The translations under genes were made by a program, and so were the position numbers. A stretch of DNA of 64,000 bases from the NCBI RefSeq assembly GCF_004135975.1, contig NZ_CP026538.1, positions 2,852,001-2,916,000 on the forward strand. The letters run 5' to 3'. Positions 9,731 through 20,516 of this stretch are shown piece by piece (position 1 is the first letter of the stretch; each line of letters begins with the position of its first letter). The DNA is from Solidesulfovibrio carbinolicus. GTDB taxonomy: Bacteria > Desulfobacterota > Desulfovibrionia > Desulfovibrionales > Desulfovibrionaceae. Under the pieces are notes generated by a model, which saw only the letters and a program-made list of their open reading frames with translations, ran no database searches and was not told the DNA's origin.

Positions 9731-10390
9731 TTATAACCACTCCAGGCCGATGACGTGCACGGCCAGCGGCCCATGCACGCCGCGCACGTACACAAATTCG
9801 ATGTCGCCGGTGCTGGACACGCCCGACACGCAGTTGAGCGCGCTGGGCATGGGGCCCTGCCCCACCCGCTCCAGCATGGTCGGCAGGTCGGGCACAAGGC
9901 GCGATTTGGCCACAAAGGCCACATGCAGGCGCGGCACCAGCGACGTGCCGCGCTCACGTCCCGGGGCGGCGGCCATGACCAGGCTGCCGGTGGCGCACAG
10001 GGCGTAGGCCACGGCCGTGACGCCGAGATCCACGGCGGCCAAGCCCGGACAGACGCGCTCGGGCAGCTCTTCCGGGGCAATGACGGCCACCTTGGCCTCG
10101 GCCAGAACCGACGCGGCCGCGACGGCGTCGAGGTCGGGATGGTCCCAACGCACGGCGGTTTTCACGTCGTTGGCGGCCAAATAGGCGGCCAGCGCCTGCC
10201 GGGCTTCCTCGGGGGTGCGGGCCAGTTCGAAGGTGGGGCCAAGGCCGGTCAGCACGGCGGCGAAGCCCTGGAAATCGGCCACGCCTCCGCCCGGCTTGCG
10301 GGGAATGGTCGGGGCCGAAACGCGGGGGAAGCCGGCGGCCGTGGCCGCGCGCAGGCGGCCGAGGATGGCGTTTTTGGCGCGCGTTTTCAT
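9731..10390 (-). CDS. lutC: LutC-type LUD-domain protein of lactate oxidase
   Basis: 219 residues, LUD domain (LutC/YkgG family), with the conserved central ATGSLVMAAAPGRERGTSLVPRLHVAFV block near residues 135-165 and a C-terminal STGDIEFVYVRGVHGP segment. Its start overlaps the end of lutB by 4 nt (ATGA). In Bacillus, LutABC together oxidise L-lactate to pyruvate. In sulfate reducers similar genes accompany lactate or glycolate oxidation. This subunit has no Fe-S cysteines. It is last in a three-gene operon reading away from the citrate synthase homologue. The substrate assignment comes from family knowledge. Confidence 0.87.
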   Translation of the reverse strand: MKTRAKNAILGRLRAATAAGFPRVSAPTIPRKPGGGVADFQGFAAVLTGLGPTFELARTPEEARQALAAYLAANDVKTAVRWDHPDLDAVAAASVLAEAKVAVIAPEELPERVCPGLAAVDLGVTAVAYALCATGSLVMAAAPGRERGTSLVPRLHVAFVAKSRLVPDLPTMLERVGQGPMPSALNCVSGVSSTGDIEFVYVRGVHGPLAVHVIGLEWL

Positions 10391-11799
10391 GCACGTCCTC
10401 CCTGGAGACGCTTAAGCCGGCGGGCAAGGGCCTTGAATCGCCGGGAGAAAGGCCGGGCCAGACCCGGGAACTCCCGGCAGCGCAGGAAACGGCCCACCGG
10501 CGCGTCCGGGGCCACGGCCGCGACCTCGCGCAGCTTGGGGTCGAACAGACGCCCCACGGCGGCCGCGCCGCCGAAAAGCAGCGGATGGCGGGCCAGCAGG
10601 TTGAAGGCCGCCACCGGCAGGTCGGTTTCGGTCTCCGACACGCGGCGGCGCAGTTCCTGGAGCAGGGCCGGATGGTCGATGCCGGCCGGGCAGGCTTCCG
10701 AGCAGGCGGCGCAGTGGGTGCAGGCAAAGGGCTGGCGCGGATCGCCGGGGTTGTCCTTTAAAAGCGGCGAAATGACCGAACCCATGGGGCCGGGGTAGAC
10801 CGTGCCGTAGGCGTGGCCGCCAACGCTCTGGTAGACCGGGCAGACGTTTAAGCAGGCGCCGCAGCGGATGCAGCGCAGGATGGAGCGCAGCTTGGGATCG
10901 GCCAGGATGTCCGAGCGGCCGTTGTCCAGGATGACCAAATGCATTTCCCTGGGGCCGTCGCGTTCGCCCTCGCGCCGCGCGCCGGTGAAAAAGGACAGGT
11001 GCACCGGCAGGGTCTGGCCGGTGGCGGCCGGCGGCAGGATGTCCAGGACCACGGCGGCGTCGGCCAGGGTTTCCACCACTTTTTCCAGGGTCATCAGCGC
11101 GATGTGGATGGGCGGGCAGGAGCCGGAAAGCCGGATGTTGCCCTCGTTTTCCAGCACCGTCACCGTGCCGGTTTCGGCGATGGCGATGTTGCAGCCGGTG
11201 ATGCCGGCGTCGGCGGCCAGAAACTTCTGGCGCAGGCTGTCCCGGGCGATGCGGGTCATCTCCGGGATGTCGGTGCTGGTGCGGCCGAACTTGCGGGCGA
11301 AAAGGTCGGAGACCTGCTCCTTGGACACGTGCAGGGCCGGAGCCAGGATATGCGAGGGGCGCTGGCCGGCCAACTGGATGATGTACTCGCCAAGGTCGGT
11401 CTCCACGGCCTCGATGCCGGCCGCTTCCAGAACCTCGTTGAGTCCCATCTCCTCGCTCACCATGGACTTGCCCTTGACCACGAGCCTCACCCCGCGCTCG
11501 GCCAGGATGCCGGCCACAAGCTTGGCTGCCGTCTCGGCCGTCTCGGCGTAGTGGACCCGGCCGCCGGCGGCGGTAACGCTTGCTTCCAGCTTTTCCAGCA
11601 GCTCCGGCAGCTTGGCCAGGGTCTTGTCGCGCACGGCCACGGCCCGGGCTTGCCTCTCGGCAAAGTCGGGCATGGCGTTGACCGAGCGCTGGCGCAGCAC
11701 CCGGATGTGGCCGATGGCCTTGTGCAGGATGGCCCGGCTTTGGCGGTCACCCAGGGCCTTGGCCGAAGCTTTGGCGAAATCGTGGGCGGTCTTGGTCAT
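10387..11799 (-). CDS. lutB: LutB-type iron-sulfur LUD protein of lactate oxidase
   Basis: 470 residues. The N-terminal and central LUD domain (about 60-290) contains VVKGKSMVSEEMGLNEVLEAAGI and IAETGTVTVLENEGNIRLS. It is followed by two [4Fe-4S] motifs, CIRCGACLNVCPVY (about 305-318) and CTHCAACSEACPAG (about 355-368). A short hydrophobic or basic C-terminal tail may dock to the membrane or partner subunits. Its start and stop overlap lutA and lutC by 4 nt each, so the three are translationally coupled. It transfers electrons from lactate oxidation to the next carrier. Confidence 0.9.
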   Translation of the reverse strand: MTKTAHDFAKASAKALGDRQSRAILHKAIGHIRVLRQRSVNAMPDFAERQARAVAVRDKTLAKLPELLEKLEASVTAAGGRVHYAETAETAAKLVAGILAERGVRLVVKGKSMVSEEMGLNEVLEAAGIEAVETDLGEYIIQLAGQRPSHILAPALHVSKEQVSDLFARKFGRTSTDIPEMTRIARDSLRQKFLAADAGITGCNIAIAETGTVTVLENEGNIRLSGSCPPIHIALMTLEKVVETLADAAVVLDILPPAATGQTLPVHLSFFTGARREGERDGPREMHLVILDNGRSDILADPKLRSILRCIRCGACLNVCPVYQSVGGHAYGTVYPGPMGSVISPLLKDNPGDPRQPFACTHCAACSEACPAGIDHPALLQELRRRVSETETDLPVAAFNLLARHPLLFGGAAAVGRLFDPKLREVAAVAPDAPVGRFLRCREFPGLARPFSRRFKALARRLKRLQGGRA

Positions 11800-12518
11800 A
11801 TGCCCTCCCCGGCCAGGACCTCGGCCAGATGCAGGGCCTTTATCGGCAGGTCGCGCTTGGCCATGGCCGAAGCGATGTTGAGCAGACAGCTCGGCTCGGC
11901 GGTGATGACCGCCTCGGCTCCGCTGGCCACGATGTCGTCGATTTTTTCCGCGACAATGGCTTCGCTGGCTTCGGGGTAGTCGATGCTAAACGCCCCGCCA
12001 AAGCCGCAGCAACGCTCGGGCCGGGCCAAGGGGACCAGCGTCAGGCCGGCGACCTTGGCCAAAAGCGCCTCGGTGGCCGATCCGGCCCCAAGCACCCGGG
12101 TGGTCTGGCATGAGCCGTGCAGGGCGGCGGTCAGGTCCCAGCGCGCCCCCAGGTCGGTCAGCCCCAGGCGTTCGACCAGGAACTGCCCCAGTTCGAAGGT
12201 CTTGGCGGCGACTTGGGCGGCCTGCTCCCGAAAGGGATCGTCCTTAGCGAAAAGCGAGGGATAGCGGCGCACCATGGCCGTGCACGAACCCGAGGGACAC
12301 ACCACCACCGGCGCGTCCTGAAAAATTTCCACAAACCGCCGGGCCAGAGGCCGCACGAGATCGGCCCGGCCGCGCTTGTAGGCGAACTGGCCGCAGCAGG
12401 TCTGGCCCTTGGGCAGCACCGGCGTCAGACCGGCCCGGACCAAAACGGCCGTGGTCGCCTCGCCCACTTGGGGCAACACGTGTTCGACCAGACAGGGAAT
12501 GAAAAGAAACGCTTCCAC
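11796..12518 (-). CDS. lutA: LutA-type (Fe-S)-binding oxidoreductase, CCG domains
   Basis: 240 residues starting at the GTG at 12518, which has AAGGAGGG six to seven bases upstream. The frame is open back to 12683, but that extension overlaps the divergent promoter region and the citrate synthase start. Two cysteine-rich CCG domains are visible: GQTCCGQFAY with VVCPSGSC, and HGSCQTTRVL with PERCCGFGGAF. This is the HdrB/GlpC-like fold that binds an unusual Fe-S cluster. It is the first gene of lutA-lutB-lutC. A 142-bp spacer to the divergent citrate synthase gene must hold both promoters. Confidence 0.9.
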   Translation of the reverse strand: MEAFLFIPCLVEHVLPQVGEATTAVLVRAGLTPVLPKGQTCCGQFAYKRGRADLVRPLARRFVEIFQDAPVVVCPSGSCTAMVRRYPSLFAKDDPFREQAAQVAAKTFELGQFLVERLGLTDLGARWDLTAALHGSCQTTRVLGAGSATEALLAKVAGLTLVPLARPERCCGFGGAFSIDYPEASEAIVAEKIDDIVASGAEAVITAEPSCLLNIASAMAKRDLPIKALHLAEVLAGEGI

Positions 12519-12660
12519 GAAAAAGCCCTCCTTGCAACGGGGCGACACCTTACGCTTTAGACCCGCCGGGTCAAGGCCACAGGCGGCTTCCCGCCCCGCC
12601 CGCTTTACAGGAAGGGGGTCCGTTGCTATGGACAGCCGTTGCAACAGATAAGGAAGCGCC

Positions 12661-13956
12661 ATGAACGAAGCACCCACCGCCACCTTGACCTATGCCGGCA
12701 AGACTGTTGAAATCCCTGTCATCATTGGCGATCACGTCGAAAAGGCCCTGGACGTGCGCAAGCTGCGCAGCCAGACCGGCTGGATCACCTTTGATCCCGG
12801 CTACGCCAACACGGCGGCCTGCAAGTCGGCCATCACGCATATCGACGGCGAAAATGGCGTGGTGCTCTATCGCGGCTATGACCTCGAAGAGCTGGCCGAA
12901 AAGGCCACCTTCGTGGAAACGGCCATGCTCATCATGTTCGGCGAGCTGCCGACCCGGGCCGAGCGCGAAGAATTCCGCATCATGCTGCGCGACCAGGAAC
13001 TGTTGCACGAGGATCTGCTGAGCCACCTCGACGGGTTTCCGCCCAACGGCCATCCCATGTCCATCCTCTCGGCCATGATCAACGCCATGGGCAGCTACTA
13101 TCCCGAACTCTACGACATCGGCTCCCCCGAGGACTTCCGGCTGGCCGCCGCCAAGATCTTAAGCAAGGTGCGCACCATCGCCGCCTTTTCCTACCGCAAA
13201 TCCCAGGGGTTGCCGCTCAATTACCCCAACCCCAACCTGGATTACTGCCGCAACTTCCTGCACATGATGTTTTCGGTGCCGTTTTGGACCTATCAGGCCC
13301 CGGACCCTGTGGTGCGGGCGCTGAGCATCTATATGCTGTGCCACGCCGACCAGGCTCTGGACACCTCCTGCGCCACGGTGCGCATGGTGGGTTCGAGCCA
13401 GGCCAACCTGTTCGCCAGCGTGTCGTCGGGCATCTGCGCCCTGTGGGGCCGCCAGCACGGCGGAGCCAGCTCGGCGGCGCTGACCATGTTCGAGGACGTG
13501 GTGGCCGGGCGCACCACTGTGGAGCGTATTTTCGAGGCCTCGAAAACCAGCGCCGGCCGCCTCATGGGCTTTGGCCAGCGGCTTTTCCACGTGGAAGACC
13601 CGCGCGCCCGCATCATCAAGCGCACCTACCAAAATCTCGTGAAAAACGGCTACGCCAAGCGCGACGCCTTCCACGACATCGCTTTGGAGATCGAGGAACG
13701 CGCCCTGGCCGACGACTATTTCGCCTCGCGCCAGCTCTTCCCCAACACCAATTTCTACGCCAGCCTCCTGCTGCGGGCCATCAACATCCCGCCGCGCATG
13801 TTCCCGGTCATCACCGCCATCGGCAACATGCCCGGCTGGATCGCCCACTGGAACGAGGAGACCCACTCCCCGGATCAGCGCATCCACCGGCCGCGCCAGG
13901 TCTACATGGGCCGCAAGCGCCACGCCTACACGCCCATGGAGAAGCGCAAGTCCTGA
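12661..13956 (+). CDS. gltA: Citrate synthase homologue with two catalytic residues replaced
   Basis: 431 residues, full length for type I/II citrate synthase; RBS AAGGAAG at about 12650. The fold-defining blocks are present: FDPGYANTAACKSAITHIDGE, PMSILSAMINAMG, LWGRQHGGAS, DPRARIIK and the C-terminal RPRQVYMG. By alignment with the E. coli enzyme, His264 is kept (H266) and substrate arginines 314 and 387 appear kept (R315, R412). His305 in the GFGH motif is Gln (Q306, codon CAG at 13576), and Asp362 in NxDFY is Asn (N364, AAT at 13750). HADH is also HADQ. The family would normally condense oxaloacetate and acetyl-CoA. With these changes ordinary activity is doubtful. It could be a pseudo-enzyme, a lyase or regulator, or use another acyl-CoA. 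It is divergent from lutABC. Confidence 0.88.
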   Translation: MNEAPTATLTYAGKTVEIPVIIGDHVEKALDVRKLRSQTGWITFDPGYANTAACKSAITHIDGENGVVLYRGYDLEELAEKATFVETAMLIMFGELPTRAEREEFRIMLRDQELLHEDLLSHLDGFPPNGHPMSILSAMINAMGSYYPELYDIGSPEDFRLAAAKILSKVRTIAAFSYRKSQGLPLNYPNPNLDYCRNFLHMMFSVPFWTYQAPDPVVRALSIYMLCHADQALDTSCATVRMVGSSQANLFASVSSGICALWGRQHGGASSAALTMFEDVVAGRTTVERIFEASKTSAGRLMGFGQRLFHVEDPRARIIKRTYQNLVKNGYAKRDAFHDIALEIEERALADDYFASRQLFPNTNFYASLLLRAINIPPRMFPVITAIGNMPGWIAHWNEETHSPDQRIHRPRQVYMGRKRHAYTPMEKRKS

Positions 13957-14153: not shown

Positions 14154-16811
14154 ATGCGTTCTTTTCGTCTGCTTGTCTTGTGCTGCCTGTCCCTGACGTT
14201 CCTGGCCGCCTTGCCGGGGGCTCTGCCCGCCCAGGACGCGGCCCCGGCCGCCGCCAAGGCCGAACCGGCCAAGACGCCGGACAAGCCCGCCGCCCCCGAG
14301 GCCAAGGCCGACGCGCCCAAAGCGCCGGACGCTCCCGCCGCCGAAGCCGGCAAGGAAGCGGCCAAGCCGGCCGATAAGCCGGCGGACAAGGCCGCCGACA
14401 AACCGGCCGAAAAAGCCCCGGACAAGCCCGCGCCCAAGGAAGCCGACAAGCCGGCACCCAAACCGGCCGACAAGCAACCGGCCGCCAAGGCCTCGGACAA
14501 GCCCGGCGACAAAAACGGCGAAAAAGCCGAAGCCGAGGCCGACGCGCCCAAGGACTGGCAGGTGCTGCTCTCCATCCACCAGGAATCGGTGGTGCAGCAG
14601 GCGGCCCGGTTCAAGTCCATGGAAGAACTGCTCCCCAAAAACGTGCGCAAGTTTCGCTCCGAGCTATCGGCCCTGGAAGGCAAGCTCGATGAATTGGGGC
14701 TTATCATCAGCCTGTCCGGCGGCAATCCCTGGGAGCTGCGGGCCGTGCTGGGCGATTTCGCCCGCCTGCGCCGGGCCGTGGAAACGCTCATCGCCCCCTC
14801 CCAGGAAAGCCGCGACGAACTCGACAAGATCGCCGCCCGGCTCGATTCCCTCAAAGAGGAGTTCGCCAAGCGCCTGGAAGACGATCCCGAGCAGCCCATC
14901 GCCGACGCCATCGGCTACTATCTGCGTTACGTCAAAAGCGTGCGCGCTTCCCTCACCGGCGTGCGTTCCACCCTGGAGAAGGAACTCGGCCCGGCCCGCG
15001 AGCTGCTGGCCGCCCTGGACAAGGCCGAAGAAGCCCTGCGCCTGAAAATCCCCAAGGCCTGGAAGACCTACTATTTCACGGCCTCCAACGAACTGTTCTC
15101 CCACAAGGCCTGGAACGACCTGGAAACCCGTTTTCAGCACTGGGCCAAGTCCAACGCCTCCATGCTGCGCTCCATGACGCGCGGTTCCGACGCCGCCCGA
15201 GCCCAGGCCGTGGGCATCCGGGCCGCGGTGGCCCTGGCCGTGCTGGCGGTGGTGTCCTTCATCGCCATCGCCCGGTTGCGCCGCCGCATTGCCGGGCTCT
15301 ACGCGCCCGGCAAACTGCGTCTGGTCTGCCTGCTGGCCGGCTCCGGGCTCATCCTGCACTGGGCGGCGGCCGGCGCGCCGCTGCTGCTCCAAGAGATCGG
15401 CAACATCCTGGCCGAGATCCTGCTCGCCGCCGGGTTGGCCGTATTCTCGCGCTATCTGGCCGAAGCCTCGGGCGCGGCCACGCCAGGGGCCGGCAATCCC
15501 CTGCGCGGCCTGTGGGCCATGTTCTCCCTGGGCCTGCTGCTCCAGATCGCCGACATCCCCGAGCCGGCCCTGACCACGCTGTGGATGGCCCTGCTGCTCG
15601 TGTTCCTGCTGGCCACGGGCCGGTTTTTGCGCCGCTATGCCGGGCCGCTGAGGCTCTTTTGCCGGGCCACGCCGCCCCTGACCATGGGCCTGGCCGTCAT
15701 GGCCGCCCTGGGCTGGCAGCACCTGTCGGTGCTGGTCATCGCCGGCTGGTTTTTGCTTTTGGCCGCCGTGCAGATCGGGGCCGGGCTGTCGCGCATCGTC
15801 ACCGCCTGGCAGGCCCGGGCCAGCCAGGAAGGGGCCTCGGCGCTCACGCGGGCCATGGTTTCGGGTCTCGGGTTCCCGCTCATCTTTCTGTCGCTGTTCC
15901 TGCTGGTCCTCTACTGGTTCTCCACGGAACTGGGCGGCCAGGAACTGTTCATGGAAGCCGTGGGGTTCACCGTAACCATCGGCACGGTCTCGGTCACCCT
16001 TGGCCGGCTGGCCCTTATTCTCACCGGCTTTTTCGTCACCCGTTCGACGCTTTTCGCCGTGCGCTCCTTTATCATGGACCTGCCGCGCCTGCGACCGGGC
16101 ATCGATCCGGGCGTACGCGACGTGCTGGAAACCACCTCGCTTTATGTGCTGTGGGGCCTGTACATCCTCATCTCGCTGTTCCTCCTTGGTTTCTCCTTCA
16201 CCAGTCTGGCGGTGGTTGCTGGCGGCCTATCCGTGGGCATCGGCTTTGGCCTGCAAAACATCGTCAACAACTTCGTGGCCGGCCTGATCCTGCTGTTTGG
16301 CCGCTCCATCCAGGCCGGCGACACCATCCAGATCGACGCCATCTGGGGCCAGGTACGCAAGGTCAACATCCGCAACACCGTGGTCCAGACCTTTGACAAC
16401 GCCACGCTTTTCGTGCCCAACTCCGACCTCATCAGCGGCAAGCTCGTCAACTGGACCCACCGCGACCCGACCGTGCGCCGGGAGATCACCATCGGCGTGG
16501 CCTACGGCTCCAACACCGAACAGGTGCGCCAGATACTGCTCGACGCCGTGGCCGGCCACGAGCATGTGCTCAAGACTCCCGCTCCGTCGGTGCAGTTCAC
16601 CAACTTTGGCGAGAGTTCCCTGGACTTCAAGTTGCTCTTCTGGGTGGACAACGTGGGCGTGGCCGTGGGCACCACCTCCGACATCCGTTTCGCCATCGAC
16701 CGACGTTTCCGTGAGGTCGGCATCGACATCCCCTTCCCCCAGCGCGAGGTGCGCATCGTGGCCGGGGCCAGCGACCCGGTTCAGGCCGCCGCCGGCGCGG
16801 CTGCGGATTGA
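14154..16811 (+). CDS. Large mechanosensitive channel, MscS family (KefA/MscK-like layout)
   Basis: 885 residues from the ATG at 14154 (GGAGAG upstream). A signal peptide (residues 1-27, ending LPAQ) is followed by a ~110-residue Lys/Pro/Ala/Asp-rich stretch with repeated KPADK/DKPA units, then a coiled-coil periplasmic region (about 140-345). Eight or more membrane helices follow, and then the MscS pore helix and beta domain (LSVGIGFGLQNIVNNFVAGL, then SIQAGDTIQID, and WTHRDPTVRREI). Such multidomain channels open on membrane tension and release solutes in osmotic downshock. The low-complexity tether may cross the peptidoglycan or touch the outer membrane. It is 197 nt downstream of the citrate synthase homologue, in a spacer where I see no other gene. 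Confidence 0.9.
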   Translation: MRSFRLLVLCCLSLTFLAALPGALPAQDAAPAAAKAEPAKTPDKPAAPEAKADAPKAPDAPAAEAGKEAAKPADKPADKAADKPAEKAPDKPAPKEADKPAPKPADKQPAAKASDKPGDKNGEKAEAEADAPKDWQVLLSIHQESVVQQAARFKSMEELLPKNVRKFRSELSALEGKLDELGLIISLSGGNPWELRAVLGDFARLRRAVETLIAPSQESRDELDKIAARLDSLKEEFAKRLEDDPEQPIADAIGYYLRYVKSVRASLTGVRSTLEKELGPARELLAALDKAEEALRLKIPKAWKTYYFTASNELFSHKAWNDLETRFQHWAKSNASMLRSMTRGSDAARAQAVGIRAAVALAVLAVVSFIAIARLRRRIAGLYAPGKLRLVCLLAGSGLILHWAAAGAPLLLQEIGNILAEILLAAGLAVFSRYLAEASGAATPGAGNPLRGLWAMFSLGLLLQIADIPEPALTTLWMALLLVFLLATGRFLRRYAGPLRLFCRATPPLTMGLAVMAALGWQHLSVLVIAGWFLLLAAVQIGAGLSRIVTAWQARASQEGASALTRAMVSGLGFPLIFLSLFLLVLYWFSTELGGQELFMEAVGFTVTIGTVSVTLGRLALILTGFFVTRSTLFAVRSFIMDLPRLRPGIDPGVRDVLETTSLYVLWGLYILISLFLLGFSFTSLAVVAGGLSVGIGFGLQNIVNNFVAGLILLFGRSIQAGDTIQIDAIWGQVRKVNIRNTVVQTFDNATLFVPNSDLISGKLVNWTHRDPTVRREITIGVAYGSNTEQVRQILLDAVAGHEHVLKTPAPSVQFTNFGESSLDFKLLFWVDNVGVAVGTTSDIRFAIDRRFREVGIDIPFPQREVRIVAGASDPVQAAAGAAAD

Positions 16812-16830
16812 TCCGAGCCTTGGGCCAAAA

Positions 16831-16864
16831 GGCGGCCCGGGGCGCGTGTTCGCTCCGGGCCGCC
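16831..16864 (+). terminator. GC hairpin after the MscS gene
   Basis: GGCGGCCCGG pairs with CCGGGCCGCC around a 14-nt loop, starting 20 nt after the stop codon. No T run follows, so it may be a weak terminator or an mRNA-stabilising hairpin. Confidence 0.4.
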
Positions 16865-16959
16865 CGGACCCGCCCTGGCCCGGACGCCGCCTTGGCCGGC
16901 GGGCATTTGCACGGGACAGCCGGATGGTTTTCTGATACGGCTCAAGAAAAGGACGCCGC

Positions 16960-17241
16960 ATGAACCGAAGAGTCCTGCCCCTGGCCTGCCTGCTCCTGGC
17001 CCTGACTGTCGCGCCCGGCTGCAAGAAGGCCAAGAGCACGGCCCCGGCCATGCCCCAATACGATGCCCTCGAACCCGGCCCCGGGGCCAATCCCCTGGAG
17101 ATCGAGCGCTACCAATTAGAGCAGGAAAAGCGGACCTTGTCCGAGAATTTGAGCGACAACCTCGACCGTATCCAACGCATCAACGCCCGCATCATCCAGA
17201 TCAACATCGAACTGCAGCGTCAGACCAATCCGCACTACTAA
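16960..17241 (+). CDS. Small putative lipoprotein with coiled coil
   Basis: 93 residues. An N-terminal signal (MNRRVLPLACLLLALTVAPGC) places a cysteine at position 21 after VAPG, an acceptable though imperfect lipobox. The mature part is Pro-rich, then an amphipathic helix (about residues 45-88, IERYQLEQEKRTLSENLSDN...) predicted to form a coiled coil. I do not recognise a family. It lies between the MscS channel and a bactofilin gene, with 31 nt to the latter, suggesting co-transcription and a role at the cell envelope. Confidence 0.65.
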   Translation: MNRRVLPLACLLLALTVAPGCKKAKSTAPAMPQYDALEPGPGANPLEIERYQLEQEKRTLSENLSDNLDRIQRINARIIQINIELQRQTNPHY

Positions 17242-17272
17242 CGCCGCCCGCGCCAGCCAAGGACCCAGACCC

Positions 17273-17710
17273 ATGTTCGGATTCTCGTCGAAGAAAAAGC
17301 CCCGCCTGGACGCCATCACCGCCTTTCTCGGGGCTGGAACCCAGTATCATGGCCAGTTCAACTTTCAGGGCGTCGTGCGCATCGACGGCGGCGTCATCGG
17401 CGACATCATCTCCGACGGCGTGCTGGTGCTCGGCGAGGAAGGGCAAGTCGAGGGCAGCATCAGCGTGGGCGAACTCATCGCCAGCGGCAGCGTGCGCGGC
17501 GACGTCACGGCCAGCCGGCGCGTCATCCTCAACAAGACGGCCAAGCTGACCGGCAACATCCAGACCCCGTCGGTGGTCATCGAGGACGGGGCCATGCTCA
17601 ACGGCCAGCTGCGCATGACCGAGGCCGAAGCCGTTGTCCTGTCCGAGGGCCTGGCCCCCTGCGCCCTGCCCGGACAGCCGGCCGACGACGTCACGGAAAC
17701 GACGTCATGA
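17273..17710 (+). CDS. Bactofilin-type cytoskeletal protein
   Basis: 145 residues. A basic N-terminal tail (MFGFSSKKKPRLDAI) is followed by the beta-helical bactofilin domain (about 20-115), with repeating hydrophobic and glycine steps: GQFNFQGVVRIDGGVIGDI, LVLGEEGQVEGSISVGELIASGSVRGDV, VILNKTAKLTGNIQTPSVVIEDGA. It has a short acidic tail. Bactofilins polymerise without nucleotide on the inner membrane and organise cell-wall enzymes or polar structures. It is downstream of the small lipoprotein gene. Confidence 0.9.
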   Translation: MFGFSSKKKPRLDAITAFLGAGTQYHGQFNFQGVVRIDGGVIGDIISDGVLVLGEEGQVEGSISVGELIASGSVRGDVTASRRVILNKTAKLTGNIQTPSVVIEDGAMLNGQLRMTEAEAVVLSEGLAPCALPGQPADDVTETTS

Positions 17711-18260: not shown

Positions 18261-20516
18261 TCACGTTGTTTCTGTAGACAAAGAGGCCGCGATAACTACA
18301 AGGATGTGAACTATGCTATCGTGTTCTGCCGCAGCAACCGCCCTATCAATTCCTGAATGCGAATACATATTATCATATATATCAGAAGATTTTATTAATA
18401 TTTCCTTTGCAGCATTGTCGAATATCTCTTGCGTTGAGGTCGATTTACTTGAAAACTGCTTAGAAATTAATTCTTTGAGCCAACAAAGTCCTTGATCGTG
18501 TCCAATCATCAGAGAAAATGCTGCAAACCCACATAACCCATGCGCCATGGCAAGCCAATCTTTCCCTTTAACCCCTACTTTAAATGACCACGACAAAAGT
18601 ATCCTTCCAAGTGTTTCAGCTACATCCCCACAACCACGGCTAAGTGCGCTGTTTGCTGATTCAAACAATATTTCCGAAAACTTATAATTTTCAACAAAAA
18701 CCAGAGATTCCTCATCATCTGGAACCGAAGTAAAAGTCGAAATCAACAAAAGAGCATGCTTTTGTAGTTTATCTTTGCTATGCTCATGGCAAGCAGGTGC
18801 ATTCGACACTGCCAACAATACGTCAGTTATTCCGGTTATCCAGTAAATCACATCAAATACAAAGAATGACTTTTCTTTTATTGACGCAATCAGAAGTTCC
18901 TTTTCGATTCGATAAAGTCCATCTGCCCAATTCTCAATGTTTCGTATTATTTGTTGAGCATCAACATTGTCAGCCTGTGCTTTAGCGAGATTATTTGCCA
19001 GCGTAGTAAGTTTAGCACGAAAACTCTGCAAGCTTGTCGACGAATAGTACGGACCAAACGCTTCGCTAAGACTGTTTAACAATGGGGTGCGGGGGACTTT
19101 AAGAAATAACTTAACAAAATAAACAATATTTTTTCTGACACTCTCGGCGGCAAAATGAATATCACCATTCTTTGAATGCAACAATTGAAATGTTATGTCC
19201 GCCAACTGCGCCACTCCTTCTAACGTAACTGGATGATAATCTTCTTTTGAAAATCCTGCACATGCAATAATGGCAATTTTTTGGCTCAATAATACGATGT
19301 CGTTTGGACTTCCAACAGAGAGAACACATTGAGCAGACTGCCCCATAAGCCGCAATCCTTCCATTAAAACATCGGCCATATCGTGAGGAACAACTGCCTG
19401 CACAGCACTCGAAAGATATCCAGCGGCAAGTAGTGCATGAGTTTTTGAAGCACGAGGATTTGAGTAATCAATTGAAAGATACAAACGGACTAAATGCGCA
19501 AGCGCTTTTAATGTTTGCTCAATCTGCCGTTCATCACGCCGCAATATCCCATCTTGTACATGTTGCCGTATACTTTCAAGAATATCATTAATAAGGTCAT
19601 CAGTCGCTAGAGGGTTCTCAACAAGAGAGCTGTCAGCATAAAAGGTTTTCCCCTTCACGGCGATATAAACGGCATTGATATTGACCACAGTTATTAGCGC
19701 GACATTGGAAACATCATGATCCCCAGCTTCTGAATAACGTCGAGCAAACGACATGGCATGCCTGACTGATCTCTTTGTCCCCTCCACCCAGCGGCTATTG
19801 CGATGGAAATAGATTGTACGAGCCAAATCGTGTGCTGACTCTTCTACTTCTGATGCACTCTTGTCACCTCCATTGGCTTCGATGAGAGGTATCGCCCGCT
19901 GAGCCCTAACACCCCATGCACGAAGCTCTCTTTTGGTATCGTCAAGCAATACCATCAGCTGGTTTAACGGATTAATAAGAAACAAAGCCCTTCTGTATGC
20001 ACCAACAAACAATAGCAATACAACAACAGTTGAAAATAATACAAAACACAAAACATATAACGGACGAACTGTACTCACAAACAACGACAAAACCGCAATG
20101 GCGACTGCCACCATAAATGCTATTGCAAACATACTAAGCAATTTAAAATCTGAACTTAACCGCTGGAATAATCCATAAGGCATTCGCTCTACATTGATTT
20201 GCATTGCAAAGAGAACCAGAGACGCAACGATGGCTGTAGCACCTATCAACGCACTACCTACACTTAGAGCAAGATTTTGCAGGCCTTCAGCCACTTTTCC
20301 CGTTGCATGGTATATATCCACCAAGTTCTGAACATTTGGCGAAAAACACAGACTACCTACGAAAATAGCAAGCGCCAATGCCATCAAGACAAAACAAATA
20401 ATCCTGACAAGAGGTTGTTTAAGAAAATTTTCAACGAAATATATACGCTGCCACACCAGTGCAACTTTATAATTAAATGCTCGTTTAAACTTCAAAAATA
20501 AAGGAGTACTCATCAT
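18261..20516 (-). CDS. Unrecognised 751-residue membrane protein in AT-rich island
   Basis: Base composition is far more AT-rich than all neighbours, with A/T-ending codons throughout, so this gene was very likely acquired horizontally. Four N-terminal membrane helices lie at about residues 38-58, 83-108, 127-150 and 152-174. The rest (about 180-740) is a soluble, alpha-helical region without a motif I can name. The second helix and what follows (GATAIVASLVLFAMQINVERMPYGLFQRLSSD) faintly resembles DUF2254-type membrane proteins, but this is only a resemblance. There is no nuclease, ATPase or toxin motif. It stands alone between a 246-nt spacer and ugd. It could be a stand-alone defence or stress protein or cargo of a lost element. 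Confidence 0.8.
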   Translation of the reverse strand: MMSTPLFLKFKRAFNYKVALVWQRIYFVENFLKQPLVRIICFVLMALALAIFVGSLCFSPNVQNLVDIYHATGKVAEGLQNLALSVGSALIGATAIVASLVLFAMQINVERMPYGLFQRLSSDFKLLSMFAIAFMVAVAIAVLSLFVSTVRPLYVLCFVLFSTVVVLLLFVGAYRRALFLINPLNQLMVLLDDTKRELRAWGVRAQRAIPLIEANGGDKSASEVEESAHDLARTIYFHRNSRWVEGTKRSVRHAMSFARRYSEAGDHDVSNVALITVVNINAVYIAVKGKTFYADSSLVENPLATDDLINDILESIRQHVQDGILRRDERQIEQTLKALAHLVRLYLSIDYSNPRASKTHALLAAGYLSSAVQAVVPHDMADVLMEGLRLMGQSAQCVLSVGSPNDIVLLSQKIAIIACAGFSKEDYHPVTLEGVAQLADITFQLLHSKNGDIHFAAESVRKNIVYFVKLFLKVPRTPLLNSLSEAFGPYYSSTSLQSFRAKLTTLANNLAKAQADNVDAQQIIRNIENWADGLYRIEKELLIASIKEKSFFVFDVIYWITGITDVLLAVSNAPACHEHSKDKLQKHALLLISTFTSVPDDEESLVFVENYKFSEILFESANSALSRGCGDVAETLGRILLSWSFKVGVKGKDWLAMAHGLCGFAAFSLMIGHDQGLCWLKELISKQFSSKSTSTQEIFDNAAKEILIKSSDIYDNMYSHSGIDRAVAAAEHDSIVHILVVIAASLSTETT

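Follow-up and report, generated by a model that had tools for sequence, protein, structure and literature searches.

Citrate synthase (CS) folds that serve an end other than catalysis, or that fail to replace the enzyme, are already known from Caulobacter crescentus. PMC7083601 describes CitA, an active CS with a catalysis-independent role in the cell cycle, and CitC, a CS-like paralogue that is 32% identical to CitA and that failed to rescue an E. coli gltA deletion. As described there, the His at position 306 of E. coli GltA (mature position 305) is critical for oxaloacetate; when its CitA counterpart was changed to Ala or Trp, the protein no longer complemented E. coli gltA but kept its cell-cycle function. 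CS active sites contain residues from both subunits (PMC4524684), and in animal CS the base that deprotonates acetyl-CoA is Asp375 (PMC5830745).

Here we examine a CS paralogue encoded in a 64,000-nucleotide stretch of Solidesulfovibrio carbinolicus DNA (the window). It is an old Si-type CS paralogue that has been kept beside a canonical CS in two genera under purifying selection. Like CitA (PMC7083601), it may have a role for the CS fold that does not need catalysis, and it likewise shares its genome with a second functional CS. It is unlike CitA in that the loss of activity predicted for the Solidesulfovibrio protein is built into its sequence and conserved. It resembles CitC as another CS-like paralogue, and we claim no kinship between the two.

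Results

A citrate synthase homologue with a replaced active site

The gene and its informative codons lie as follows.

12661-13956, + strand: CS paralogue, 431 amino acids from ATG to stop, in which the oxaloacetate His, the catalytic Asp and one oxaloacetate Arg are replaced (Q306, N364 and N389)
13342-13368, + strand: altered motif HADQALDTS, codons 228-236 (E. coli HADHEQNAS)
13456-13458, + strand: codon of H266, the catalytic His that is retained (E. coli H264), from the alignment, with the position counted from the CDS start
13576-13578, + strand: codon of Q306, at the E. coli H305 site, from the alignment
13750-13752, + strand: codon of N364, at the E. coli D362 (general base) site, from the alignment
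13825-13827, + strand: codon of N389, at the E. coli R387 site, from the alignment

The sole Pfam match of the protein is PF00285 (Citrate_synt), at 350.6 bits against a gathering cut-off of 27 and over profile positions 1-357 of 357; it has no match to the HMGL-like fold PF00682, which we take to be the family of Re-citrate synthase. Its nearest solved structures by sequence are CSs (7e8n, 4tvm, 2h12 and others), and it is 38% identical to E. coli GltA and 54% identical to the canonical copy of its own genome. With type II Si-citrate synthases (NF004126, TIGR01798; 7e8n, 2h12, GltA 1nxe) it shares full-length homology, the fold and the equivalents of H264, R314 and R407; unlike them, it has Gln, Asn and Asn for H305, D362 and R387 and Asp for N232, and it falls below the NCBIfam equivalog cut-offs (471.1 versus 505 for NF004126, 411.4 versus 485.15 for TIGR01798). 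It is also under the cut-offs of the 2-methylcitrate synthase NCBIfam models listed. An earlier suggestion that the protein could be a citryl-CoA lyase finds no hint in the sequence: the two have a C-terminal CS-like region in common, with weak matches, but citryl-CoA lyases are short, whereas the paralogue has full CS length and scores at most 70 bits against five lyase models (NF004864, NF004866 to NF004869) with cut-offs of 193 to 409, the best score of 70 bits facing a cut-off of 212.

A structure model of the paralogue reached a mean pLDDT of 88.5 and a pTM of 0.90, and all 50 PDB matches listed for it by Foldseek were CSs (among them 7e8n at 43% identity, 2h12 and 6zu0). The rmsd to the best PDB chains was 9-14 Å despite TM-scores of about 0.7-0.9; thus parts of the model are placed differently, and it can be relied on for the fold and not for fine geometry. 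When the canonical paralogue was modelled as a control from the same 62 sequences, the scores were equal and the lists of helices and strands almost identical. Variant-specific disorder of the loop at 239-245 was considered and dropped, as the control has the same low-confidence loop at 238-246.

Residues were mapped by alignment with E. coli GltA in mature numbering, which is gap-free around the active site. The paralogue keeps H226 (as H228), H264 (H266), R314 (R315) and R407 (R410), and it replaces H305 (by Q306), D362 (N364), R387 (N389), H229 (Q231) and N232 (D234). We take R314, R387 and R407 of E. coli to be the oxaloacetate arginines, and R410 to be the Arg donated across the subunit interface. 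Within the motif HADQALDTS, Q231, A232, L233, D234 and T235 stand where canonical CSs have conserved residues. The CoA-side motif drifts in the Solidesulfovibrio copies, from KNYDPR to HVEDPR and with N270 changed to Ser. The preliminary description had credited the protein with a full CS fold, a retained H266 and replacements at Q306 and N364, all of which the PF00285 match and the GltA alignment bear out. Its statement that the substrate arginines are kept is right for R315 and R410 and wrong for the R387 site, which is N389 in all 16 full-length copies; this replacement and D234 had been overlooked.

The possibility that another His or Asp had moved into the active site, which that description had also raised, was checked in the GltA alignment and in the CS alignment described below, and neither places another His or Asp in the vacated columns. 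A shifted residue hidden by misalignment was rejected as well, because there is no gap near the active site and the columns concerned read His, Asp and Arg in 70 of 70 canonical rows.

The replacements are fixed in one clade

The variant and a second CS occur together in 17 of 17 genomes searched, 14 of 14 from Solidesulfovibrio and 3 of 3 from a second, related genus. One of these genomes, G006, has both of its CS genes incomplete at contig ends, and its variant is split over them into two halves. Named sources of proteins 85-99% identical to the paralogue include S. magneticus, S. aerotolerans, S. alcoholivorans and two genomes filed as Desulfovibrio sp. An order-wide profile search of 348 genomes, with at most five candidates scored per genome, returned variants only from the 14 Solidesulfovibrio genomes and the three of the second genus, at 845-943 bits versus 670 for the next match (the split G006 copy scores by piece). 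Among the matches listed for 395 genomes drawn from the phylum, with at most four candidates scored per genome, there was no further variant, and the best match outside the family had 523 bits. Plasmid records gave 245 matches to the paralogue, all below 60% identity.

Our CS alignment holds 88 distinct sequences from 133 loci: 16 full-length variants, the two halves of the split gene and 70 others. Q306, N364, N389 and D234 are present in all 16 full-length variants, and the other 70 CSs uniformly have His, Asp, Arg and Asn; the G006 halves agree with the variants wherever they cover these positions. Compared with Si-citrate synthase (EC 2.3.3.1), the acetyl-CoA-site His is thus in place (H266, invariant in the 16 copies, as are R315 and R410), while each of H305, D362 and R387 is replaced throughout. 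Six changes (H305Q, D362N, R387N, N232D, Q231L and A/C233T in E. coli mature numbering) set the variant active site apart from every canonical one aligned, and the replaced residues are fixed even though variants of the two genera are only about 65% identical overall. The E. coli H229 site behaves otherwise, with Gln in the 13 full-length Solidesulfovibrio variants and His in the three of the second genus; the earlier reading of HADH as HADQ therefore holds for this protein and its genus and does not extend to the other.

Among the sequences read from outside the two genera, none showed the same joint replacement of base, oxaloacetate His and one Arg. In 20 weaker CS matches from other genomes of the phylum, hand-picked among the matches listed (16 second or third in their genome, four best), His306 and Arg389 are present in 20 and His266 and Asp364 in 19. 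We therefore rejected the idea that disarmed CSs are common among other CS homologues, since 19 of the 20 keep all four residues. The exception, L140 (G402:C1:1514000-1516000), is a CS homologue without His266 and Asp364 (CADHELSCS, GPRNQSTY, NLGFW) from another genome of the phylum, with a second CS about 6 kb off. It is another candidate disarmed CS, and its loss differs in manner from that of the Solidesulfovibrio variant clade.

Probable vertical inheritance, and purifying selection

In a tree of 86 sequences (IQ-TREE, LG+C20+F+G4), the 16 variants group together as a single clade (100/100) with a long stem of 0.48, divided into the two genera. Together with their presence in 16/16 full-length copies, this establishes Q306 and N364 as conserved at the level of a clade, a point that the preliminary description had proposed to check. 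Canonical CSs from these two genera likewise adjoin each other in the tree (100/99), and the genomes are arranged in largely the same order among the variants as among the canonical copies. The simplest account is therefore that the paralogue dates from the separation of the two genera or from an earlier time and has been inherited vertically since; the shared set of replacements would, again most simply, represent a single rewriting that preceded this separation. The variant clade branches off next to a group of 46 canonical rows from the order and one uncultured relative, and not from inside it, at a weakly supported fork (84/45). Seven long end branches were flagged in the tree, none of them in the variant clade, and one of them, L110, may be falsely joined to the large group to which the variant clade belongs.

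Substitution rates were compared by the Nei-Gojobori method for 119 of 120 genome pairs, one being under the dS limit, with dS less reliable for distant pairs. Over the same pairs the median dN/dS was 0.159 for variants versus 0.187 for canonical copies, and the median ratio of variant to canonical dN was 1.17. In the eight closest pairs dN/dS was 0.03-0.14 for variants versus 0.01-0.12 for canonical copies, with the variant higher in six. Purifying selection on the variant is thus strong and comparable to that on the canonical gene; given six of the eight closest pairs and the dN ratio, it is perhaps slightly looser. All 16 full-length variants begin with ATG and have no internal stop, the TAG seen in two copies being the terminal codon.

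A screen of the 431 columns for clean switches between variants and canonical sequences, at set thresholds, returned seven: F123L, Q233L, N234D, C235T, H306Q, D364N and R389N. Six of these fall in catalytic motifs, with hypergeometric p values of 5e-5, 4e-4 and 0.0019 at motif radii of 1, 2 and 3 around nine catalytic positions and against a background of 140 near-invariant canonical columns. Across the 16 variants no variation occurs at eight of the nine catalytic positions, compared with 225 of 431 columns overall. Testing conservation in this way is in part circular, because the switch sites were chosen for being fixed. The N364 codon is AAT in 10 variants and AAC in six; it is therefore the amino acid that has been kept. 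Identity of the variant to the canonical paralogue is at the canonical level in segments 151-210 and 241-270 and not in segments 211-240, 301-330 and 361-390, which fits a kept assembly and is proof of nothing. Altogether, the pocket looks like the product of one coherent rewriting followed by constraint, and not of decay.

An intact citrate synthase on the same chromosome

The preliminary description had reasoned that a Re-citrate synthase might have freed this gene for another job. This argument fails, because the same chromosome carries an intact canonical Si-type CS (G000:C1:3118248-3119525), about 250 kb from the paralogue and with every catalytic residue present, and no Re-citrate synthase is needed to explain the loss. 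The canonical protein is over the NCBIfam cut-offs that the paralogue misses (NF004126, 554.5 versus 505; TIGR01798, 497.1 versus 485.15), and the genome has exactly these two PF00285 matches and no third.

The genome has five HMGL-like matches, of which four exceed the family cut-off. By sequence, three of the five proteins resemble LeuA, CimA and pyruvate carboxylase (our labels). Another is a 398-amino-acid LeuA/NifV-like protein (G000:C1:2307556-2308749; L045, L134) that is under the cut-off of every NCBIfam model listed and could be a Re-citrate, homocitrate or other synthase. Across 59 family genomes, matches to it at 55-76% identity occur only in Solidesulfovibrio and the second genus, and others reach at most 46%. 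An ElbB-like gene (our label) adjoins it, and no nif gene was recognised beside it. Separately, 92 of 149 family genomes have no match to the CS paralogue at an E value of 0.001; thus many relatives may rely on another citrate synthase.

Genomic context

The genes around the paralogue are the following.

9731-10390, - strand: LutC-like LUD-domain protein (our label)
10387-11799, - strand: LutB-like iron-sulfur LUD-domain protein; TIGR00273 at 431.4 bits, just below the cut-off of 444.8
11796-12521, - strand: LutA-like cysteine-rich CCG protein (our label), divergent from the CS paralogue; the open reading frame runs to 12683 and the start is approximate
14154-16811, + strand: MscS-like mechanosensitive channel, following the variant on its strand in all 13 regions compared
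16960-17241, + strand: small 93-amino-acid protein with no Pfam match, in 10 of 10 Solidesulfovibrio and 0 of 3 second-genus regions
17273-17710, + strand: bactofilin, likewise behind the variant on its strand in all 13 regions compared, in both genera

The divergence from lutABC, taken earlier as a hint of joint control with lactate use, is real and mostly conserved: the LutA gene adjoins the variant in 13 of 14 Solidesulfovibrio loci and one of three in the second genus, and of 13 longer regions, 10 contain all three lut genes. Other genes occupy the lut position in S. aerotolerans and two genomes of the second genus. The arrangement is therefore a weak functional hint, being absent from one Solidesulfovibrio and from two of the three second-genus genomes.

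The channel and bactofilin genes, found in all 13 regions, are more constant neighbours than LutA. Matches to the channel accompany all 16 full-length variant loci versus none of 70 canonical loci, flanking sequence being mostly about 1.5 kb for the canonical loci and shorter for 11 of them. In Solidesulfovibrio, the channel, the 93-amino-acid protein and the bactofilin (14154-17710) form a conserved same-strand run behind the CS paralogue. Scans of the region gave no sigma-70-like site and ten terminator-like sites versus 4.9 expected by shuffling; none of the latter lies between the paralogue and the channel gene.

Farther downstream, a 751-amino-acid open reading frame (18261-20516, - strand) lies between the bactofilin and UDP-glucose dehydrogenase genes and has no Pfam or PADLOC match. 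Its G+C content is about 41-43% in windows inside it versus 62-70% in most flanks, and in the near-identical locus L097 the space between the two bordering genes is too small for it. The frame seems to have been inserted recently.

Discussion

In regard to function, the enolising base, the oxaloacetate-binding His and one oxaloacetate Arg are all gone, and for this reason the CS paralogue very probably makes no citrate at a useful rate. The likeliest reading of a clade in which Q306 and N364 are conserved is a role other than citrate synthesis, as the preliminary description had envisaged. The protein also has the features by which a pseudoenzyme may be recognised from sequence, namely homology to an enzyme, lost catalytic residues, a conserved clade and purifying selection. 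No published description of it was found in the literature searched, judged by titles and the openings of abstracts.

Our leading proposal, which we hold with moderate confidence, is that the paralogue acts as a ligand-binding regulatory pseudoenzyme. It probably still dimerises, and it would bind an acyl-CoA, a small carboxylate or both between its two domains through H266, R315, R410 and the group Q306, N364, N389 and D234. The bound state would then be passed on to a partner, the simplest of which would be the canonical CS by way of mixed oligomers; we propose these because CS active sites use both subunits and the cross-subunit Arg, R410, is kept. The drift of the CoA-side motif in Solidesulfovibrio (HVEDPR, N270 to Ser) weakens the case for acyl-CoA binding in that genus. 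The perhaps slightly looser constraint on the variant and the distance of about 250 kb to the canonical gene also count against the proposal. Furthermore, the fixed replaced residues and the new Asp in the catalytic motif, D234, suit new chemistry equally well.

Such chemistry defines the main rival, in which the paralogue would be a neofunctionalised enzyme that uses H266, D234 and Q306/N364/N389 in another reaction of a CoA ester or a small carboxylate. We regard this as a possibility of clearly lesser weight. Its substrate would carry fewer carboxylates than oxaloacetate because the R387 equivalent is lost. Fixation of the replaced residues across genera at about 65% identity, as if the pocket were in use, argues for such an enzyme, as do the invariance of H266, R315 and R410, the gain of an acidic residue at 234 with the loss of one at 364, and the LutA gene adjoining 13 of 14 Solidesulfovibrio loci. 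However, with no acid or base at the D362 site the known route of acetyl-CoA enolisation would be unavailable, and the neighbours (lutABC, the channel, the small protein, bactofilin and ugd) point to no pathway in both genera. As a more far-reaching and less likely reading, the rebuilt pocket may catalyse a reaction of, or sense by binding, a partner other than oxaloacetate, for example a mono-carboxylate or CoA ester of lactate metabolism, which would make it a new branch of the CS superfamily in sulfate reducers.

Alternatively, the pocket may be vestigial and the protein structural, for example a scaffold in an assembly of membrane or cytoskeleton that also includes the channel and bactofilin, whose genes follow the variant on the same strand in all 13 regions of both genera. 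The titles of PDB entries 8an1 and 8bei indicate that Synechococcus elongatus citrate synthase forms large assemblies, which gives this idea a precedent. We nonetheless think it unlikely: gene adjacency by itself proves no interaction, and a vestigial pocket should drift, yet eight of nine catalytic positions are invariant against 225 of 431 columns. Still less probable is a working citrate or 2-methylcitrate synthase that tolerates its altered residues. The full-length fold and the 54% identity to the canonical copy are what such an enzyme would have, but the protein misses the citrate synthase cut-offs (471 versus 505, 411 versus 485) and those for 2-methylcitrate synthase, and a single change at the H305 site of Caulobacter CitA ends complementation (PMC7083601), whereas here the His, the base and an Arg have all changed. 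Loss of catalytic residues would also be expected of a decaying pseudogene, an explanation we find hardly credible, as we do a sequencing artefact, when open reading frames are intact in 16 of 17 genomes (the 17th being split over contig ends), dN/dS is about 0.16 and identical replacements recur in separate assemblies.

CS is among the best-studied of enzymes, and its catalytic His, Asp and Arg are unchanged in all 70 canonical sequences aligned. A second copy whose replacements are fixed over two genera offers a clean natural test of the fate of this pocket once the base and the oxaloacetate ligands are gone, with a sensor, a subunit that tunes the true enzyme and a new enzyme as the alternatives to be told apart. 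Metabolic models of Solidesulfovibrio could also easily count this protein as a working citrate synthase.
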